64,000 nt of DNA from contig DATJTX010000025.1 in the NCBI GenBank assembly GCA_035502855.1, forward strand, positions 59,242-123,241. The letters run 5' to 3'. Below, in pieces: positions 2,481 to 59,944 of the stretch (positions within the stretch are counted from its first letter, which is position 1; every line of letters starts with the position of its first letter). Origin of the DNA: Candidatus Baltobacteraceae bacterium. Lineage in GTDB: Bacteria; Vulcanimicrobiota; Vulcanimicrobiia; Vulcanimicrobiales; Vulcanimicrobiaceae. Position numbers and translations under genes: made by a program. The notes under the pieces are model-generated. The model saw only the letters and a program-made list of their open reading frames with translations, had not been told where the DNA came from and ran no database searches.

Positions 2481-4643
2481 ATGAACTTCGAGTCCGTGCG
2501 CTCTTTCGCGCCGCGTCCGGATGGCTGGCACAGAACGGCGGTCTATATCGCCGGATTTTTGCTTGCGTGGCAGATTCTCGCGCCGCTGCCGGACGGCGCC
2601 GTCGTCGCGGCCGACGTTCTTCTGCTGCTTTACGCGGGCTGGCGTTGGTGGCCGCTGATTCCGCTCGGCGCCTTGGCCCGCTCCGCCGTCCTCGAACACA
2701 CGCTTCCCGCGCTTTTATCGACGCTCGTGGTGCAGCTCGTCATCGCCGCGGTGTTTGCGTATGCGGTTGCGTTCGTGCTGACTCGTTTGCGTGTCACGCT
2801 CCCGCTGCGCACGCTGCGCGACATCGCCGTCTTTGTCGGTATCATCGGTGTCGCGGCGCCGGTACTCGCCGGTTCTCTGGGCGTCACGCTGCTGGTCGCG
2901 ATTGGGCACATCGCAACGGACGACGTACCGCGAGCCTTGGCGCAATCGATTTTGGGCACGGTGACGTCGATCGTGGCATTGGTCCCGGCGGTCATCACGC
3001 TCGGCGGTTGGCGCGGGCTGAACCCGCCCGCCGAGCATCAGGAGCCGCGCGCGGTCGAAATCGCCGGCTTGGTCGCCGGCATTGCGATCCTGGTGTGTGC
3101 CGGTGTCTATCTCGAGTCGCTCACCCACGCGCCGATTCTCGAGGTGCCGGTCGTCGTGATGTGCTGGCTTGCGATCCGGTACGGCATTCGCGGCGCTGCA
3201 CTGGCCTCGCTCACGGCATGGGCCAGCGCGACCGCGATGCAGCTTCTGCAGGCGCACTCCCCGATGCCGGTTCAAAGCCAGGGATTTCTCTTCGCCTCTT
3301 CGCTCACGGCGCTCTTGTTGGGGGGGCTGAGCGAAGAACGGTGGGAATTGGTTGCGCGTCTTTCGCGTCGCGCTTTCGTCGATGAGCTGACGGGCCTGCC
3401 AAATCGTGAGCGGCTGGTCGAATGGATCACCCGGCATGCCGATTCCGCGATCGTGCTCGTGATCATGGACGTCGACGATATGCGTCTGCTCAACCAGGGC
3501 GTCGGCCGCGTCGCCGCCGATCACGTGCTTCAGCAGATGGCCATACGCATGCGCGGAACGTTTCCGCCCTCGCACATGATTGCGCGGGTCAGCGCCGATG
3601 AGTTCGCGGTGGCGGTAGTCGACGATCGCAGCCCGCACGCGATCATGGCGGAACTGCGCGCCTTTTTCGACGCGCCCTTCGAAGCCGACGGGTCACGCGT
3701 CTTCATTTCAGTTTCGATGGGCGCAGTGCGGATGATTCGTGCCGGGTCGGCGGACGAGATGCTGCGAAAGGCCGATATTGCGCTCGACCGCGCGAAGGAA
3801 TCGCCGACGCATGCAATGGTCTATTCACCCGAACTGCAGGTCGGTGAATCGCCGTCGCTCGTGGGCGAATTGCATCGCGCCGTGGAACGGCGAGAGCTCG
3901 TCCCGTTCTTCCAACCGATTTTTGCCTTCGACGAGACGACGCGCGACTGGCGTGTAGCGGGAGCCGAGGCTCTGCTGCGCTGGATCCACCCCGAGCGCGG
4001 AATCGTTACGCCCTCGAGCTTCATCGAACTGCTCGAACGCCTTTCGATCGGCGAGCACGTCGGCTGGAACGTGATGGAACAGAGTTTGCTGCAAGCCGGG
4101 GAATGGCGGCGCGACATTCCGGATTTTGCCGTGTGGGTCAATCTCTTCGCCCGGCAAGTGCTCCATCGGCATTGTCGCGATCGCATACGGGACCTGCTCG
4201 AGCGGACCGCGGTTCCGGCCAGCGCGCTGATCGTCGAGATAAACGAGAGCGTGGTTGCGAGTGACGAAGGCGACGTGGCCGCGCTCGTGAGTTCGCTGCG
4301 CGAAATCGGTGTACACTGCGCGATCGACGATTTCGGCACGGGCGGTTCTTCGCTCGGACGGGTGCGCGACGTTCCTGCGAGCGTACTCAAAATCGATCGT
4401 TCGTTCGTGACGAAGAGCGAAGTCGACAGTAAAGCGCGTGCGGTCGCCGTTACCGTGATGCGCCTGGCTTCGGAACTCGGCATGACGGTCGTCGCCGAAG
4501 GCGTCGAGAACACCATGCAGCTCGAAGTGATGCTCGAAACCGGCTGCCAATACGTGCAGGGCTACGCGCTCGGGCACCCGCTTCCGGCCGATCTGTTCGC
4601 GCGCACGTTCCTCACGGCCAGCCGCGCAACCTCATCGCACTAA
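2481..4643 (+). CDS. Membrane GGDEF-EAL protein, likely cyclic-di-GMP phosphodiesterase
   Basis: This 720-residue protein has an N-terminal hydrophobic MASE1-like sensor of about eight membrane segments (residues 20-285). A GGDEF domain follows (about 298-450), then an EAL domain (about 460-710). The GGDEF signature is degenerate: the active-site loop reads SADEF (371-375), so cyclase activity is unlikely, although GTP binding is possible. The EAL domain looks competent: EALLRW (496-501), NLFARQ, the acidic EINES, AIDDFGTGGSSL, LKIDRSF, AEGVEN and QGYALG are all present. It therefore probably degrades c-di-GMP in response to a membrane signal. An AAAGG ribosome site sits directly before the ATG. 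It converges on the lipoprotein gene with a 4-bp stop overlap. Confidence 0.9.
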   Translation: MNFESVRSFAPRPDGWHRTAVYIAGFLLAWQILAPLPDGAVVAADVLLLLYAGWRWWPLIPLGALARSAVLEHTLPALLSTLVVQLVIAAVFAYAVAFVLTRLRVTLPLRTLRDIAVFVGIIGVAAPVLAGSLGVTLLVAIGHIATDDVPRALAQSILGTVTSIVALVPAVITLGGWRGLNPPAEHQEPRAVEIAGLVAGIAILVCAGVYLESLTHAPILEVPVVVMCWLAIRYGIRGAALASLTAWASATAMQLLQAHSPMPVQSQGFLFASSLTALLLGGLSEERWELVARLSRRAFVDELTGLPNRERLVEWITRHADSAIVLVIMDVDDMRLLNQGVGRVAADHVLQQMAIRMRGTFPPSHMIARVSADEFAVAVVDDRSPHAIMAELRAFFDAPFEADGSRVFISVSMGAVRMIRAGSADEMLRKADIALDRAKESPTHAMVYSPELQVGESPSLVGELHRAVERRELVPFFQPIFAFDETTRDWRVAGAEALLRWIHPERGIVTPSSFIELLERLSIGEHVGWNVMEQSLLQAGEWRRDIPDFAVWVNLFARQVLHRHCRDRIRDLLERTAVPASALIVEINESVVASDEGDVAALVSSLREIGVHCAIDDFGTGGSSLGRVRDVPASVLKIDRSFVTKSEVDSKARAVAVTVMRLASELGMTVVAEGVENTMQLEVMLETGCQYVQGYALGHPLPADLFARTFLTASRATSSH

Positions 4644-18398: not shown

Positions 18399-19274
18399 TC
18401 AGGTGCGCATCATGCGGCGGAAGTATCGCCGCTGAATTTCTTCCTGCGCCGCGGCCAGCCGCTCGCGCATCTCTCGCGTCGGCACGCGTACTTTGTCGAC
18501 GAGGCGCATCGCCGCCATGACCTTGATCATCCACCAGGTACAGTCGAGCTCGAACCACTTTAGGCCGTGACGCGCCGAAAACGGAAACGCATGGTGATTA
18601 TTGTGCCAGCCTTCGCCCCATGAGATCAGCGCGACCCACCACGAGTTGACCGAACGATCCATCGTGCGATAGGTGCGGTAGCCGGTGAAGTGGGCGGCGC
18701 TGTTTACGAGCCAGGTCGCGTGGTACGTGAAGACCAGGCGCACGAAAATCGCCCAGATCACCCACGACCAGCCGCCCAGAAGAAGGAGCAGTCCGGCAAG
18801 CGCGATCTGGAGAGGTATGTGCAGATACCGCAGCGCTCGATAGAACGGGTCACCCCACAGGTCCGGCGTGACGCGCTTTTGCTGGGCTCCGGTCGGAATG
18901 TTTTCGTTGGTGCGAAATAGCCACGTCAGGTGGGCCCAGCTCAAGCCGCGGCGAATGCTGTGCGGATCTCCCGCCCGGTCCGAATGCGCGTGGTGAATGC
19001 GATGGGTTGCGACCCAGTCGATCGGGCTTCCCTGAAACGCGAGCGTTCCCAGGATCGCCGTCGCATACTCGAGCGGCTTGACCATGCGCAGCGCCCGGTG
19101 CGTGAGCGCACGATGGAAGCAGAGCGTAATGCCGATGCCGCCGGTCGCGTAGGCGACCACGCCGGCCGCGAGCAACGCCCACCACGAAAAAAAGGCTGGT
19201 ACGAACGCGAGAAGAGCACCGACATGTATCGCGAGGAGCGCGATGCCGGTAACCCAGTTGGGCCGGTGATGCAT
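18399..19274 (-). CDS. Fatty acid (acyl-CoA type) desaturase
   Basis: The 291-residue membrane enzyme belongs to the stearoyl-CoA desaturase-like di-iron family that puts a cis double bond, usually delta-9, into acyl chains. All three histidine boxes are present: HRALTH, HRIHHAHSD and EGWHNNHHAF. There are about four membrane helices and a basic C-terminal tail. Start chosen at ATG 19274 (MHHRPNWV), which begins just before the first membrane helix; an upstream ATG in the same frame (19370) would overlap the helicase gene. In the mRNA an inverted repeat (about 19275-19294, GGGGCG.../...CGCCCC) lies directly before the start codon and could limit translation. The helicase gene on the same strand ends 52 bases upstream. 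Confidence 0.88.
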   Translation of the reverse strand: MHHRPNWVTGIALLAIHVGALLAFVPAFFSWWALLAAGVVAYATGGIGITLCFHRALTHRALRMVKPLEYATAILGTLAFQGSPIDWVATHRIHHAHSDRAGDPHSIRRGLSWAHLTWLFRTNENIPTGAQQKRVTPDLWGDPFYRALRYLHIPLQIALAGLLLLLGGWSWVIWAIFVRLVFTYHATWLVNSAAHFTGYRTYRTMDRSVNSWWVALISWGEGWHNNHHAFPFSARHGLKWFELDCTWWMIKVMAAMRLVDKVRVPTREMRERLAAAQEEIQRRYFRRMMRT

Positions 19275-55602: not shown

Positions 55603-55992
55603 GTGCTTGAGAACGAGCCGCTGATCGCGGTCGATCCGCAGATCGAGACGCCGCCGTATCAACAGATCTTCGAGCAAATTCGGGCGGCAATCGAACGCGG
55701 CGCGCTCGTACCCGATGCGCCGCTTCCGACGGTGCGGCAACTCGCCGGCGACCTCGGTGTGGCTCCCAATACCGTTGCGCGCGCGTATGGCGATCTCGCA
55801 AATGCGGGATGGCTCGTCAGCGAAGGCCGCCGCGGTACGCGCGTCGCGAGCAAGACGCCGGCGGCGGATCGCCGCGCGCGCTCGAATGCGCTGGCGCAGG
55901 CGACGTCGCGGTTCGTGGATTCACTGCGCCATCGCGGCTACAGCCCGACGGAGATCGCCGCCGAGCTGCGCAAAGTCCTCGAACGGGGTTGA
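55603..55992 (+). CDS. GntR-family (YtrA subfamily) transcription regulator
   Basis: The 129-residue regulator has an N-terminal winged helix: PPYQQIFEQIRAAIERGALVPDAPLPTVRQLAGDLGVAPNTVARAYGDLANAGWLVSEGRRGTRV, a standard GntR layout. The short C-terminal helical part (about 50 residues, with FVDSLRHRGYSPTEIAAELRKVL) is typical of YtrA-like members rather than of the large effector-binding GntR groups. Start is GTG 55603. Its likely operator is the TTGTAT/ATACAA dyad at 54746-54767. A perfect TTGACA overlaps its stop codon (55989-55994) and may serve the attenuator downstream. Confidence 0.88.
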   Translation: MLENEPLIAVDPQIETPPYQQIFEQIRAAIERGALVPDAPLPTVRQLAGDLGVAPNTVARAYGDLANAGWLVSEGRRGTRVASKTPAADRRARSNALAQATSRFVDSLRHRGYSPTEIAAELRKVLERG

Positions 55993-56021
55993 CAGCCCCC
56001 GCCGGGATGTGATTGCATAGC
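55989..56021 (+). promoter_or_regulatory. Candidate promoter of the aromatic operon
   Basis: TTGACA at 55989-55994 overlaps the GntR stop codon and is a perfect -35. A -10 lies somewhere in 56011-56020 (TGCATA, 56014-56019, spacing 19, is the best but weak). Transcription would begin just before the leader ORF at 56028, which could be translated with little or no 5' untranslated region. The -10 assignment is uncertain. Confidence 0.4.
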
Positions 56022-56027
56022 CGCAAC

Positions 56028-56108
56028 GTGACTCGGAACGGTTTTAGCTTTGCGTACTGGTATTACTACTTCGGCCTGACCGGTCGAAGGGGATTCGCGC
56101 ACGCATAA
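56028..56108 (+). CDS. Aromatic-amino-acid leader peptide (26 residues) of attenuator
   Basis: A GTG-started ORF of 26 codons whose core reads FSFAYWYYYF (residues 6-15), with another Phe at residue 23, so nine of 26 codons are Phe (4), Tyr (4) or Trp (1). The run of critical codons, 10-15, spans 56055-56072. It lies directly before a PDT-DAHP synthase operon. When charged aromatic tRNAs are scarce the ribosome should stall here; when plentiful it reaches the TAA at 56106-56108. No Shine-Dalgarno is obvious, so initiation may be weak or leaderless. Reading all three aromatic amino acids in one leader is unusual: known leaders typically sense one. Confidence 0.85.
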   Translation: MTRNGFSFAYWYYYFGLTGRRGFAHA

Positions 56109-56161
56109 AACCAGCCGGCTCGTCGCCGGAGAACACACGTAAGATGCATGAACGAGTCCCC
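56089..56161 (+). promoter_or_regulatory. Candidate antiterminator of attenuator
   Basis: GGGGATTCG (56089-56097, inside leader codons 21-24) can pair over nine positions, one a G-U, with CGAGTCCCC (56153-56161), the left arm of the terminator stem. This would exclude the terminator. A ribosome stalled at codons 10-15 leaves the region free; one at the stop codon covers it. A 5-bp hairpin (56115-56119 with 56125-56129) fits in the intervening loop. Confidence 0.65.
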
Positions 56162-56187
56162 GCCGAAGTGGGGACTCGTTCCTTTTA
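56150..56187 (+). terminator. Attenuator terminator upstream of pheA-aroF fusion
   Basis: A perfect 12-bp stem GAACGAGTCCCC / GGGGACTCGTTC with an 8-nt loop (56162-56169) is followed by CTTTTAT. It ends 22 bases before the start of the fusion gene, so it must be bypassed for expression. Its left arm is the target of the antiterminator. Confidence 0.88.
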
Positions 56188-56208
56188 TGAACCAGGGGTA
56201 ACCAGGCA

Positions 56209-58011
56209 ATGACAGCGGTCTATCAGGGCGTCGACGGAGCCTACTCGCAGCTCGTACTCGGGCACTTTTTGCGCGAGCACGGCATCGAGATGCCGACGGC
56301 CGGACTTCCGACTTTTCGCGAGATGGCAACGGCAGTCGCCGGCGCGCGGGCCGAGGTCGGCGTCATGCCGATCGAAAACGCGATCGTCGGGACGGTACGC
56401 GAGGGCTACGATTTGCTGGCCGAGTTCGATCTCGCGCCGGTCGCCGAGATCCAGTGGCGCACCGATCACCGGTTGCTCGGTGTGCGCGGCGCGCAGCTGC
56501 GCGACGTCCGTGAAGTGCTCGCGCATCCGCTCGTGCTCGCCGAGTGCGGCGCGTTCTTGGCCGGGCTCGATCACGCGCGCGCGATCCCGTGTGAAGATAC
56601 CGGAGTCGCGGCGCGCGAAGTCGCGCGCGGCGGCAACCCTGCGATCGCCGCGCTCGCCTCTCCCGCCGCGGCGTCGATCTACGATTTGGTCGAGCTGGCG
56701 ACTCACTGCAGCGACGATCCGCGCACGTATTCACGCTTTTTGATCGTACGCCCACGCCACGCCGCAGCGTCGAATCCGGTGGTCGGACTCGGCAAGAGTT
56801 CGCGGCGCAAGACCTCGCTGATCTTTTCGGTGGAAGAGCGAACCGGCTCGCTGGCCGGTGCGCTCGCGATTCTCGCCGAGCGGAACATCAACGGCGATAA
56901 GCTTGAGTCGAAGCCGTACCTCGGTCACGGCACCGAGCGCGTGTTCTACGTCGATTTCGACGGCGATCTCGATGACACCAACGTCGCCGACGCGCTGGCT
57001 GCGTTGAAGAAAGCGACCCACACGCTGACGGTCATCGGTAGTTACGATGCGCACGTGGGCGAGCCGATCGGACGCAACGACGATCCGCCCAAAGCGCTGG
57101 TCGAACTCGTGCGCGAGATCGCGCCGCAACCGGCGCCGATCGGTGACTCGCCGACGCCGCGCGCGTCGCGCGCCGCCAATCCGCCGGGTACGATGCTGCA
57201 GATCGGCGGCGTGCGCGTCGGCGACGGCGAGTTCACCATCGTGGCCGGTCCGTGTTCGGTCGAGTCGCGCGAGCAGATTCTCTCGACCGCGCATGCGGTG
57301 AGCGCGCGCGGTGCGGTGATGTTGCGCGGGGGCGCGTTCAAACCGCGCACGAGCCCGTACGCGTTTCAGGGCCTGGGTTGGGAAGGCGTTTCGCTCTTGG
57401 CCGAGGCTGGACGCGCAACCGCGTTACCGACGGTGAGCGAGGTGATGACGATCGATCAGGTCGATCGCATGGCAGCGCAGATCGACGTCCTGCAAATCGG
57501 CGCGCGCAACATGCAGAATTTCGACTTGCTCAAGGCGGTCGGACGATGCGGTCGCCCGGTGTTGCTCAAGCGCGGACTCGCGGCCACCGTCGACGAACTG
57601 CTGGCCGCCGCCGAGTACATTCTTTCCGAAGGCAATCCCAACGTGATCCTGTGCGAGCGCGGCATTCGAACCTACGAACAGGCAACGCGCAACACGCTCG
57701 ACCTCTCCGCCGTGCCGGTGCTGCGCGAGCGCTCGCATTTGCCGGTCTTCGTCGATCCCAGTCACGGTGTCGGTGTGCGCCGCTGGGTGCGCCCGCTCTG
57801 CCGTGCGGCCAAGGCCGTCGGCGCGCATGGGTTGCTGATCGAAGTCCATCCGAATCCGCCCGAAGCCAAGAGCGATAAGGACCAGGCGCTCACGTTCGAC
57901 GATTTTGGCACGATCATGCACGATCTCGCCGGGATCGGTATCTGGTCGGGAGCCCCGGCATCGCTGGGGGGCGCGCAGGCGGAAGCCGGAGCGCCTACAA
58001 GGCCTCGATGA
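56209..58011 (+). CDS. Prephenate dehydratase-ACT / DAHP synthase fusion
   Basis: The 600-residue protein has a prephenate-dehydratase-like domain (1-180), an ACT domain (about 200-270) and a KDO8P/type I-beta DAHP synthase (about 325-590). The synthase is intact: VAGPCSVESREQ, GGAFKPRTSPYAFQG, LLKRG, CERGIRTYE, VDPSHGVG, IEVHPNPPEAKSDKDQA. In the dehydratase, the TRF active-site motif reads SRF (Ser175). The ACT keeps the Phe-binding patterns GSLAGAL and LESKP. A separate, TRF-bearing dehydratase lies in the same operon. I infer that the fused half may act chiefly as a Phe/prephenate sensor for DAHP synthase, controlling entry into the shikimate pathway, though some activity remains possible. 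aroH starts at its stop (ATGA). Confidence 0.9.
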   Translation: MTAVYQGVDGAYSQLVLGHFLREHGIEMPTAGLPTFREMATAVAGARAEVGVMPIENAIVGTVREGYDLLAEFDLAPVAEIQWRTDHRLLGVRGAQLRDVREVLAHPLVLAECGAFLAGLDHARAIPCEDTGVAAREVARGGNPAIAALASPAAASIYDLVELATHCSDDPRTYSRFLIVRPRHAAASNPVVGLGKSSRRKTSLIFSVEERTGSLAGALAILAERNINGDKLESKPYLGHGTERVFYVDFDGDLDDTNVADALAALKKATHTLTVIGSYDAHVGEPIGRNDDPPKALVELVREIAPQPAPIGDSPTPRASRAANPPGTMLQIGGVRVGDGEFTIVAGPCSVESREQILSTAHAVSARGAVMLRGGAFKPRTSPYAFQGLGWEGVSLLAEAGRATALPTVSEVMTIDQVDRMAAQIDVLQIGARNMQNFDLLKAVGRCGRPVLLKRGLAATVDELLAAAEYILSEGNPNVILCERGIRTYEQATRNTLDLSAVPVLRERSHLPVFVDPSHGVGVRRWVRPLCRAAKAVGAHGLLIEVHPNPPEAKSDKDQALTFDDFGTIMHDLAGIGIWSGAPASLGGAQAEAGAPTRPR

Positions 58012-58406
58012 GCGAAGCTCATTCGGGCGGCCTGCGGGTGCGCGGGATTCGCGGCGCGATCACGGTCGAGCGTGACGACGCCGACGCGATCGTCGCGGCC
58101 ACCAAACGCTTGTTGACCGAAATGATCGAGCGCAACGCGGTGACGCTCGACGACATCGCGTCGGTCCTCTTCAGTTTGACTCCGGACCTTCACGCGGTCT
58201 TTCCGGCGCTGGGCGCGCGCGAAATGGGCTGGGTGCACGTGCCGATGCTGCACTTCACCGAGATCGCCGTACCCGGTTCGCTCGACCGCTGCATCCGCGT
58301 GCTGATGCACGTCAACACGTCGCGCTCGCTCGAGGCCATGGAACACGTGTATCTCGACGGTGCGGCGGTGCTGCGTCCGGATCTCGCTCGCACGAGTACG
58401 CCGTAG
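58008..58406 (+). CDS. aroH: Chorismate mutase, AroH class
   Basis: The 132-residue protein matches the trimeric AroH family rather than the helical AroQ class. It has VRGIRGAITVERDDADAI with the first active-site Arg, and MERNAVTLDDIASVLFS-like helix (MIERNAVTLDDIASVLF). Then come MGWVHVPMLHFTEIAVPGSLDRCIRVLMHVNT, containing the second Arg, and EHVYLDGAAVLRPDL with the Tyr. It converts chorismate to prephenate in the cytosol, feeding the two prephenate enzymes encoded beside it. Its ATG overlaps the stop of the fusion gene as ATGA, and tyrA begins 4 bases after its stop. Confidence 0.94.
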   Translation: MSEAHSGGLRVRGIRGAITVERDDADAIVAATKRLLTEMIERNAVTLDDIASVLFSLTPDLHAVFPALGAREMGWVHVPMLHFTEIAVPGSLDRCIRVLMHVNTSRSLEAMEHVYLDGAAVLRPDLARTSTP

Positions 58407-58410
58407 CCGT

Positions 58411-59175
58411 ATGTCCCGCTTGGGCATCATCGGAACCGGATTGATCGGCGCGTCGGTCGGCCTCGCGGCGCGTTCGCGCGAATGGGAAGTGTTCGGGTAC
58501 GATTCGACCGCCGAAGGCCTGCGCGGAGCGCTCGGTTGCGGCGCGATCGACTCCGCCGTCGAGCAGCCCTCCGCGATCTACGCGACGTGCGACGTCATCG
58601 TGATCGCTGCGCACCTCAACGCGACGCTCGCCGAAGTTGCGGCGCTGCGCTCGCGGCCGCTGCGCGACGATCAGCTCGTCATCGACGTTGCCTCCGTCAA
58701 GGAACCGGTTGCGCGCGCGGGCGCCGGCGTCGGTGCCTTCGTACCGACGCATCCCATGGCAGGCGGCGAACAACGCGGTCCGGCCGCTGCGCGCAGCGAT
58801 TTGTTTCGCGGCCGAACTTGGTGCTACGTGCCGACCGCTGACGAACGGCGCACCGCTGCGGCGCGTGTCTTCGTCGCGAAGCTTGGGGCGGAGCCGGTCG
58901 CCGTCGATGCCGCGCAGCACGACCGGATCGTCGCGCTGACCTCGCACGTCCCGCAACTGGTCGCGTTCGCGTTCGCGCAGTGCGTCAACGAGCGAGCCGT
59001 GCAGGCTCCCGAACTCGTCGAGGCGCTCTGCGGCCCGGTCGCGCGGGAGCTTCTTCGCTTGGGACGTTCCTCGCAGCCGATGTGGGATGAAATCTTCGCC
59101 GCCAACGCCGGTGCCGTGCGCGCCGAGCTGGCGCATCTCGAAGAGGTGATCGATGATCGTCGGATACCAGGGTGA
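58411..59175 (+). CDS. tyrA: Prephenate/arogenate dehydrogenase
   Basis: The 254-residue enzyme has an N-terminal Rossmann motif GIIGTGLIGASVGLAARSR, an adjoining DVASVKEPVARA segment, the TyrA signature THPMAGGEQRGP, and the helical-domain LTSHVPQLVAFAFAQ. It oxidatively decarboxylates prephenate (or arogenate) towards tyrosine using NAD(P)+. It is short, lacking an ACT or other C-terminal regulatory domain, so Tyr feedback is probably exerted elsewhere, perhaps through the attenuator. Start ATG 58411 begins directly with the Rossmann strand. It overlaps the next gene by 23 bp. Confidence 0.93.
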   Translation: MSRLGIIGTGLIGASVGLAARSREWEVFGYDSTAEGLRGALGCGAIDSAVEQPSAIYATCDVIVIAAHLNATLAEVAALRSRPLRDDQLVIDVASVKEPVARAGAGVGAFVPTHPMAGGEQRGPAAARSDLFRGRTWCYVPTADERRTAAARVFVAKLGAEPVAVDAAQHDRIVALTSHVPQLVAFAFAQCVNERAVQAPELVEALCGPVARELLRLGRSSQPMWDEIFAANAGAVRAELAHLEEVIDDRRIPG

Positions 59176-59944
59176 GTCCGGCGCCTTCAGCGAGGAGGCG
59201 ATCCCGGAACTCTTCGGTGCGGTCGACACGCGCGGATACCCCACCTTCGATGCCCTCATCGAGGCGGTTGACGGCGGCGAGATTCCATACGGGCTGTTGC
59301 CGTGCGAGAACAGCATCCACGGCCCGATCGCGCGCGCCTACGATCTGCTCGATGCCTACCCTGCGGTGAACGTGGTGGATGAAACCGTTCACCGCGTCGT
59401 ACAGGCGCTGATCGGGACCGCACAGGCTCGGGTCGAGCAGATCCGGCGGGTCGAGTCGCATCCGGTCGCGCTCGAACAATGCCGGCGCTTTCTTGCCTCG
59501 CTCCGCGACGTCGAGGTCGCGCCGGTCGCGGACACCGCAGGCGCGGTTCGCGACGTCGTGCGCGCCGGCGATCCCGCCCGGGCGGCGATCGGGCCGGCGG
59601 CCAGCGCCGCACGCTACGGCGGGCAGATTCTGGCCCACGCGATCCAGGACGAAGTCGAGAATTACACCCGGTTCTTCGTGGTGGCGCGAGGCGGCGAGCC
59701 GCGGCGGCGTCTTGGGCGAGCGGTCCTCGGGTTTCGGCTCGCGCATCGGCCCGGCAGCCTGCATGCGGCGCTCGGGATCTTCGCCGAACGCGAACTGAAT
59801 CTGCGAGCACTGGTGGCGCGGCCGTTTCCGGGCCGGCCGTTCGAGTACGTTTTCTATGCGGAACTCGACTGCCCCGAGCCGGCGCTGGCCCAAGCGATTT
59901 TGACGGAAATCGGCGGCCGAACCCGCCTGCTCGGGTGGTATTAG
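59153..59944 (+). CDS. pheA: Prephenate dehydratase with ACT domain
   Basis: The 263-residue protein is a complete bacterial prephenate dehydratase: VGYQGESGAFSEEA, LLPCENSIHGPIARAYDLL, the catalytic TRF in ENYTRFFVVA (Thr172), and a C-terminal ACT domain. It makes phenylpyruvate, the precursor of phenylalanine. The ACT domain lacks the usual ESRP-type Phe-binding motif: where the fused enzyme has LESKP this one reads LVARP, so it may be poorly feedback-sensitive. This is the mirror image of the fused copy upstream, which keeps the ACT motif but alters TRF. It is the last gene of the aromatic operon, overlapping tyrA by 23 bp and followed by the rpsL promoter. Confidence 0.93.
   Translation: MIVGYQGESGAFSEEAIPELFGAVDTRGYPTFDALIEAVDGGEIPYGLLPCENSIHGPIARAYDLLDAYPAVNVVDETVHRVVQALIGTAQARVEQIRRVESHPVALEQCRRFLASLRDVEVAPVADTAGAVRDVVRAGDPARAAIGPAASAARYGGQILAHAIQDEVENYTRFFVVARGGEPRRRLGRAVLGFRLAHRPGSLHAALGIFAERELNLRALVARPFPGRPFEYVFYAELDCPEPALAQAILTEIGGRTRLLGWY

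Follow-up and report, generated by a model that had tools for sequence, protein, structure and literature searches.

The analysed window is a 64-kb stretch of DNA from a Candidatus Baltobacteraceae bacterium, and all features described for it here lie on the forward (+) strand. Its operon for aromatic amino acid synthesis opens with a gene for a prephenate dehydratase-ACT-DAHP synthase (PDT-ACT-DAHPS) fusion (56209-58011; Pfam, NCBIfam). This gene is followed by those for an AroH-type chorismate mutase (58008-58406; Pfam CM_1), the prephenate dehydrogenase TyrA (58360-59175 for the ORF as listed, the real start probably being further in; Pfam) and a second prephenate dehydratase, PheA (59153-59944; Pfam), which shares the operon with the PDT-containing fusion. 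An earlier, sequence-only reading of this DNA had described an operon that begins with a DAHP synthase fusion and also serves the Tyr and Phe branches, and the Pfam assignments bear out the order of its genes. Candidatus Eremiobacterota MAGs account for the named relative with the most similar fusion protein (89% identity) and for most of those that follow it. Distant homologues of the fusion, with 40-49% identity over most of its length, occur in records labelled Myxococcota, Chloroflexi, Actinomycetota and Krumholzibacteria.

Upstream of the operon lies a GntR-type gene (55603-55992), whose stop codon is overlapped by a predicted -35 box, TTGACA (55989-55994). A predicted extended -10 box, TGATTGCAT (56010-56018), ends 9 nt before the start codon of a leader peptide ORF of 26 codons, which can be read directly from GTG at 56028 to TAA at 56106-56108 and encodes MTRNGFSFAYWYYYFGLTGRRGFAHA. 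Nine of its codons are aromatic (F4 Y4 W1), as previously counted, and eight of these fall within codons 6-15 (56043-56072), the sensor codons, with the core FSFAYWYYYF. Beyond the ORF, direct reading and folding both give an intrinsic terminator hairpin (56150-56181) with a 12-bp stem (56150-56161/56170-56181) and an 8-nt loop, ending in an interrupted T-tract, TTCCTTTT (56179-56186). The segment GGGGATTCG (56089-56097) pairs with CGAGTCCCC (56153-56161) at nine positions, one of them G.U; the sequence-only reading had identified these pairs as the antiterminator. In duplex calculations they form the core of a longer structure, in which a 5' arm at 56067-56106 pairs with 56145-56169, a partner made up of the pre-terminator, the terminator 5' arm and the loop. 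The minimum-energy fold of the leader also contains a protector hairpin (1:2) at 56040-56112, spanning both the sensor codons and the stop codon; as long as it is not opened by a ribosome, it would keep the antiterminator arm sequestered.

When all six frames of the window were read, a single stretch with at least eight aromatic residues in ten codons was found, and this stretch is the leader. None occurred in 30 shuffled windows, so the aromatic cluster is more than chance would give.

The distribution of the leader was assessed in a family search of 99 genomes, 40 of which carry a fusion or DAHPS gene at E<=1e-90. Three of these 40 are unreadable upstream of the gene (G003, where the contig begins at the terminator; G093, masked; G115, contig end). 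An aromatic leader lies directly upstream in 30 of the 37 readable genomes, twice before an unfused DAHPS gene; a weak member of this group is the leader of G030 (FPDFSF). The other seven readable genomes show no leader at this position, and all seven belong to one genus, g19 (L004, L111-L115, L128). A g19 genome, G104, has a TTGACA about 90 nt before the protein match. Beyond the family, the leader also precedes unfused DAHPS genes in four genomes of the same order and in one of the same class. The leader ORF and its stems are kept in relatives, a comparison that the earlier reading had proposed.

A model built from 18 leaders (R1) recovers the other 19 of the 37 DAHPS-type leader loci with E values from 3e-20 to 1e-5, the best of them (L118, 3e-20) being a near-duplicate of a training leader. 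In the window R1 matches 56028-56185 at E 1e-20, this leader being part of the training set. Across the phylum, 58 of 149 genomes have some R1 match at E<=0.01, a count that includes other operons and bare terminators. The 30 family leaders upstream of fusion or DAHPS genes and 38 further R1 matches, which are part of all those obtained in the family and phylum searches, make up a set of 68 leaders; it does not include the leaders of hom and thrC, the loci of G003, G093 and G115 (truncated or masked) or L159-L164. Two further R1 matches in the window (4158-4294 and 19117-19225) fall within coding sequence, and both were discarded as chance. Of the six matches in the window's own genome with E>0.1, five were assigned: three are no leaders, one is the window's own terminator on the opposite strand, and one is the hom leader (E 0.16).

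Codon usage was compared in 42 aromatic leaders, 28 of them before the fusion, nine before DAHPS and five before aroA. Within codons 5-14, aromatic residues make up a fraction of 0.52 in the frame of the ORF, of 0.05 and 0.10 in the other two sense frames, and of 0.00, 0.00 and 0.14 in the antisense frames. Both synonymous codons are in use for Tyr and for Phe (TAC 73, TAT 56, TTT 54, TTC 22), and codon differences between close leader pairs are too few for a test of synonymous bias. Each leader holds 4-10 aromatic residues, and the peptides otherwise differ widely (for example MLNVCAYAYWHGW, MLTDRSLAFAYYYYF, MTVAGWSYRYFYA and MHFAPSYYAYYSVW). Tyr occurs in 41 of the 42 leaders, Phe in 36 and Trp in 32, the sets being F+Y+W in 26, F+Y in nine, Y+W in five, F+W in one and Y only in one.

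These figures bear on the possibility that the hairpin is an ordinary terminator, or an element under ligand or T-box control, next to an incidental ORF. Terminators with similar stems do recur, and 8 of 45 R1 matches proved to be merely the terminator palindrome on the opposite strand, matches that were rejected as leaders. Against such an explanation stand the concentration of aromatic codons in one frame only, the near-universal Tyr, the near-constant distance of the aromatic codons from both promoter and antiterminator arm, and an Rfam search of the window in which no family, amino-acid leader families and T-box included, reached its gathering score. An incidental ORF therefore seems extremely improbable.

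The 163-nt leader (56028-56190) folds at -65.7 kcal/mol, better than each of 200 shuffles (z -4.2), and the long antiterminator duplex reaches -32.8 kcal/mol, a strength attained by none of 200 shuffled arms. Covariation was analysed in an alignment (A4) of 32 of the 37 DAHPS-type leaders, which left out the near-duplicates L118 and L198 and the divergent L201, L182 and L015. Two-sided changes were found in 8 of 14 terminator pairs, a number reached in 6 of 500 shuffles, and the covariation score was equalled in none of 500; 86% of the alignment cells are paired, as opposed to 50-62% when the structure is slid. Covariation of the terminator stem, for which the earlier reading had proposed a test, was accordingly recovered. 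For the antiterminator it is seen in part: 68.8% of the cells are paired (38-48% when slid) and the covariation score was reached in 0 of 500 shuffles, but significance was lacking for two of the five measures (57/500 and 256/500). The antiterminator structure counted was voted from the same sequences, and this alignment is ill-suited to an arm of varying length.

Stronger support for the antiterminator came from arm swaps. Throughout the first set of leaders, the stretch that follows the sensor codons pairs with the pre-terminator, the terminator 5' arm and the loop; compared with 200 shuffled arms, this pairing is second to none in some species and ordinary in others, such as L003, L127 and L006. 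When arms were swapped among 16 leaders, native pairs averaged -27.4 and swapped pairs -23.3 kcal/mol (z -4.8, 0 of 20000 permutations, uncorrected for relatedness); the early 18-leader sets left out L015, and 16 of the 18 entered this test. A swap among 63 leaders from all classes, chosen from the 68 so that each codon 5-14 core was represented once, gave z -13.0 (0 of 20000, likewise uncorrected for relatedness). The swap was not significant when restricted to the small aroA group or the small Cys group. No covariation is claimed for the protector hairpins, since their pairing register differs between clades, and on the same ground a common descent of all of them was rejected as a claim.

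Some leader peptides act on translation, and the leader could in principle control translation of the first gene rather than transcription. However, a strong hairpin follows the ORF in 68 of 68 leaders, with at least five T in 11 nt at its end in 60 (fewer in the other eight), and in the window the hairpin ends 27 nt before the start of the fusion gene, a distance that fits termination. Translational control is accordingly rated as quite improbable.

To model the effect of ribosome position, everything from the 5' end up to 13 nt beyond the first base of the codon in the A site was masked, and pairing was computed for the stage at which the terminator 3' arm is still missing. Averaged over the 68 leaders, a ribosome placed at codons 8, 11 and 13 lets the antiterminator form at 0.82, and one placed at the stop codon at 0.10. 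The shuffled-arm control gives 0.43, and the native value lies above its control in 68 of 68 leaders. Cognate codons give more release of the antiterminator than the other codons do in 17 of the 18 leaders of the first set and in 65 of the full 68, and all of codons 6-14 fall within the modelled release zone; the drop after codon 16 is partly trivial, because the masking removes the arm itself. In the window's own leader, the antiterminator forms at 0.70 with the ribosome stalled (0.41 with shuffled arms) and at 0.53 with the ribosome at the stop codon. The earlier statement that a stalled ribosome frees the arm and one at the stop codon covers it therefore describes the mean of the set well, while in this leader considerable pairing persists at the stop. 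In the pre-terminator model with no ribosome, the protector is not the preferred structure (antiterminator 0.76).

At full equilibrium the terminator prevails. Its probability in the window's leader is 0.97 in the stalled state and 1.00 at the stop, so equilibrium folding as proof of a switch is unsupported for this leader; the means of the 68 leaders are 0.77 and 0.97, and the difference between the two states exceeds 0.3 in 19 of them. The two exclusive structures that had been expected of a fold calculation exist insofar as the antiterminator uses the terminator 5' arm, but equilibrium favours the terminator in both ribosome states. Since the terminator wins at equilibrium even when the ribosome is stalled, the switch of most leaders would have to be kinetic, depending on the order of folding. 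Switching of attenuators is usually assumed to depend on that order.

The promoter is placed very regularly. In 66 of 68 leaders the best -35 match lies 36-42 nt before the leader start; the hexamer begins with TTGAC in 62, and the promoter score exceeds the 99th percentile of shuffles in 61. The start codon follows the best -10 match by 7-12 nt in 66 of 68 leaders, as compared with a fraction of 0.177 in shuffled upstream sequence, and a Shine-Dalgarno-like motif is present within 18 nt upstream in 5 of 68. A transcript usually begins some 7 nt beyond the -10 box, and this spacing accordingly predicts a leaderless mRNA, probably with a 5' UTR of about 0-5 nt at most. For the window's leader, transcription is predicted to start at about 56025-56028, 0-3 nt from the GTG. 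The conserved promoter thus predicts a start upstream of the antiterminator arm, in agreement with the sequence-only reading.

All 38 further R1 matches that were read are leader-like, mostly before other operons, and carry cognate codons at codons 6-14. R1, having been trained on aromatic leaders, favours a like length and terminator, but agreement between codons and gene is not something that it can select. In the window's own genome, MLVTSLLLLALALVG precedes leuA, MLLTALLIVVLVLIS precedes ilvB and MSNLHVMCHMC precedes an SsuA-family gene. A Met-rich leader, MFQTSMMTCSMCIM, lies before homoserine dehydrogenase (L190, G000:C37 30894-31022, minus strand), with a sulfhydrylase-like gene, so named by eye, also behind it. 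Threonine synthase is preceded by MISMFVSTTTTTTTTTTVV (L222, G000:C37 about 33291, minus strand), a leader that contains a run of ten Thr codons (MISMFVSTTTTTTTTTTVVRCRVDVG); a terminator-like hairpin lies between it and the gene. A promoter-plus-ATG pattern matched the own genome three times and a reversed control once; two of the three matches are the hom and thrC leaders, and the third looks by eye like a MarR-type gene. The relatives carry F/W/Y leaders before aroA, Trp leaders before trpD, L/I/V leaders before ilvB and ilvC, Cys runs before sulfur genes and a Thr-containing leader (TLATIT) before an aspartokinase-like gene. Names based on NCBIfam are those of leuA, ilvB (2 of 9), SsuA, aroA (1 of 5), trpD (1 of 2), aspartokinase, homoserine dehydrogenase and threonine synthase; the rest of the R1 leader loci, including ilvC and other sulfur genes, were named by eye. 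The design does not precede every pathway, since the 450 nt upstream of the own trpE contain no Trp-containing short ORF. The aspartokinase-like protein at L176 (G021:C11), which lies behind a Thr-containing leader, has ACT domains and a C-terminal winged-helix DNA-binding domain (Trans_reg_C), and is possibly an enzyme-regulator fusion.

The variety of leaders also bears on how a ribosome would be made to stall. Free Trp stalls ribosomes on the TnaC leader peptide, according to the portion of a published account that was available (PMC8429421), and arrest by the nascent peptide in response to a free aromatic amino acid, instead of codon starvation, could be imagined here as well. The peptides, however, share no conserved sequence beyond their aromatic density, the same architecture occurs with Leu, Cys, Thr or Met codons before matching pathways, and arrest by the end product would presumably have the wrong sign for a biosynthetic operon. 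An arrest of the TnaC kind is therefore very hard to credit.

Taken as a whole, the region places a small ORF, with its many Phe, Tyr and Trp codons, after a predicted promoter and ahead of a predicted terminator, and it is likely to be a transcription attenuator that responds to aromatic amino acids by way of the ribosome. The ribosome would enter at the 5' terminus of the transcript, which is predicted to be leaderless. With enough charged tRNA, the model has it reach the stop codon and cover the antiterminator arm, upon which the terminator would form. If Phe-, Tyr- or Trp-tRNA were short, it would stall within codons 6-15, at a position taken from the model, open the protector hairpin and leave the antiterminator arm free. 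The free arm could then pair with the terminator 5' arm and loop while the 3' arm is still to be transcribed, and the operon would be expressed. The mixture of Phe, Tyr and Trp fits the gene that follows, because the leaders of trunk genes (DAHPS, aroA) are mostly mixed F/Y/W, a trpD leader has Trp and those of ilvB and ilvC mix Leu, Ile and Val. The earlier proposal of a leader sensing Phe, Tyr and Trp holds in terms of codons, all three being present in the 26 leaders noted above; that all three amino acids act as signals we infer from this composition.

The AroR-aroF attenuator of C. glutamicum was reportedly described by Neshat et al. in 2014. In the sections available of the papers concerned, aroF of this organism has a leader with Phe-Tyr-Phe (PMC4046766), and AroR is described as giving control by phenylalanine and tyrosine (PMC7356990). 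As far as these excerpts go, AroR resembles the window's leader in being a mixed aromatic leader before a DAHP synthase gene that works by ribosome-mediated attenuation, and the earlier remark that known leaders mostly sense one amino acid omitted it. AroR differs in having three adjacent aromatic residues, without Trp, and in belonging to Actinobacteria, whereas the leaders described here have the higher aromatic counts given above, often with Trp. They precede a PDT-DAHPS fusion, DAHPS or aroA in another phylum, and are compared with AroR by composition.

AroR also lends some weight to an attenuator in which only one or two aromatic amino acids, such as Tyr or Phe, are signals and the other aromatic codons are passed without effect. 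Despite its Phe-Tyr-Phe, the AroR operon is stated in the accessible part of a review to respond to Phe limitation, with no effect of Tyr availability (PMC11802643), and the unequal occurrence of Tyr, Phe and Trp among the 42 leaders points the same way. On the other hand, composition tracks the products of the operons (F/Y/W for trunk genes, W for trpD, Y for an HO-like gene, L/I/V for ilvB), and a stall at any of codons 6-14 falls within the modelled release zone. Signalling by one or two amino acids thus appears possible, although it is the less expected outcome.

The pheL-pheA and trpL-trpEDCBA systems of E. coli follow the same protector/antiterminator/terminator logic, and the leaders of E. 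coli have a Shine-Dalgarno site. Both systems also share with the window's leader a leader ORF and control by charged tRNA, as outlined in the available text of the same review (PMC11802643), but pheL and trpL respond to one amino acid each and serve branch-specific operons, and the window's leader matches no Rfam family. One leader for several end products of a shared pathway is found in IlvL of ilvBHC of S. lividans (Val, Ile, Leu), according to the accessible part of that study (PMC8079986), the trunk there being branched-chain and here aromatic. Leaderless leader peptides are likewise mentioned in the portions available for LeuL, TrpL, IlvL, ThrL and MetL of S. lividans and for the ilvB leader of C. 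diphtheriae (PMC8079986, PMC5784534); those starts were called from RNA-seq, whereas the starts given here are predicted from promoter spacing. The excerpts on S. lividans list eight leaders, several of them leaderless, and include Trp leaders but none for Phe, Tyr or mixed aromatic residues (PMC8079986). The consulted part of another study reports that Phe and Tyr operons of Actinobacteria lack conserved structures upstream (PMC1262725). A 2010 survey, in its available sections, regards leader-peptide systems as not shown outside Proteobacteria and Actinobacteria, and itself adds Firmicutes (PMC2965389). In the open-access PMC literature, subscription journals being outside this scope, no paper was found that joins Eremiobacterota and leader peptides, and among the matches listed there is neither an attenuator in Eremiobacterota nor a title on an F/Y/W leader.

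The mechanism is of a known kind; novelty lies in the leader with F, Y and W together, in its leaderless design and in the presence of a multi-operon set in Eremiobacterota. We lean towards a broader reading, in which an Eremiobacterota clade runs amino-acid synthesis by leaderless attenuators of one design, codons 6-14 name the products, the copy in the window acts as a pan-aromatic F/Y/W sensor governing the shikimate trunk, and functions of unknown genes can be predicted from the code. A whole set of attenuators in a mostly uncultivated phylum, leaderless and matched to trunk or branch, would extend the classic mechanism, and the leader codons would provide a readable label for gene function, for instance where a Tyr-rich leader marks an uncharacterised protein of the CADD fold.

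Tyr-rich leaders of this last type (for example MLVRTYAYGYYYYGYS and MFVLHSDAYYYYYYGYF) stand before the same uncharacterised gene in 10 of 10 loci read (L179, L224-L233; L179 is G012:C12 180577-181338, minus strand), and the gene occurs in 22 of the 99 family genomes. Its product has no match in the PDB by sequence; the predicted fold (mean pLDDT 82, from a 9-sequence alignment) is closest to CtCADD. CADD makes p-aminobenzoate from its own tyrosine, and the protein behind the Tyr-rich leaders may supply or use tyrosine.
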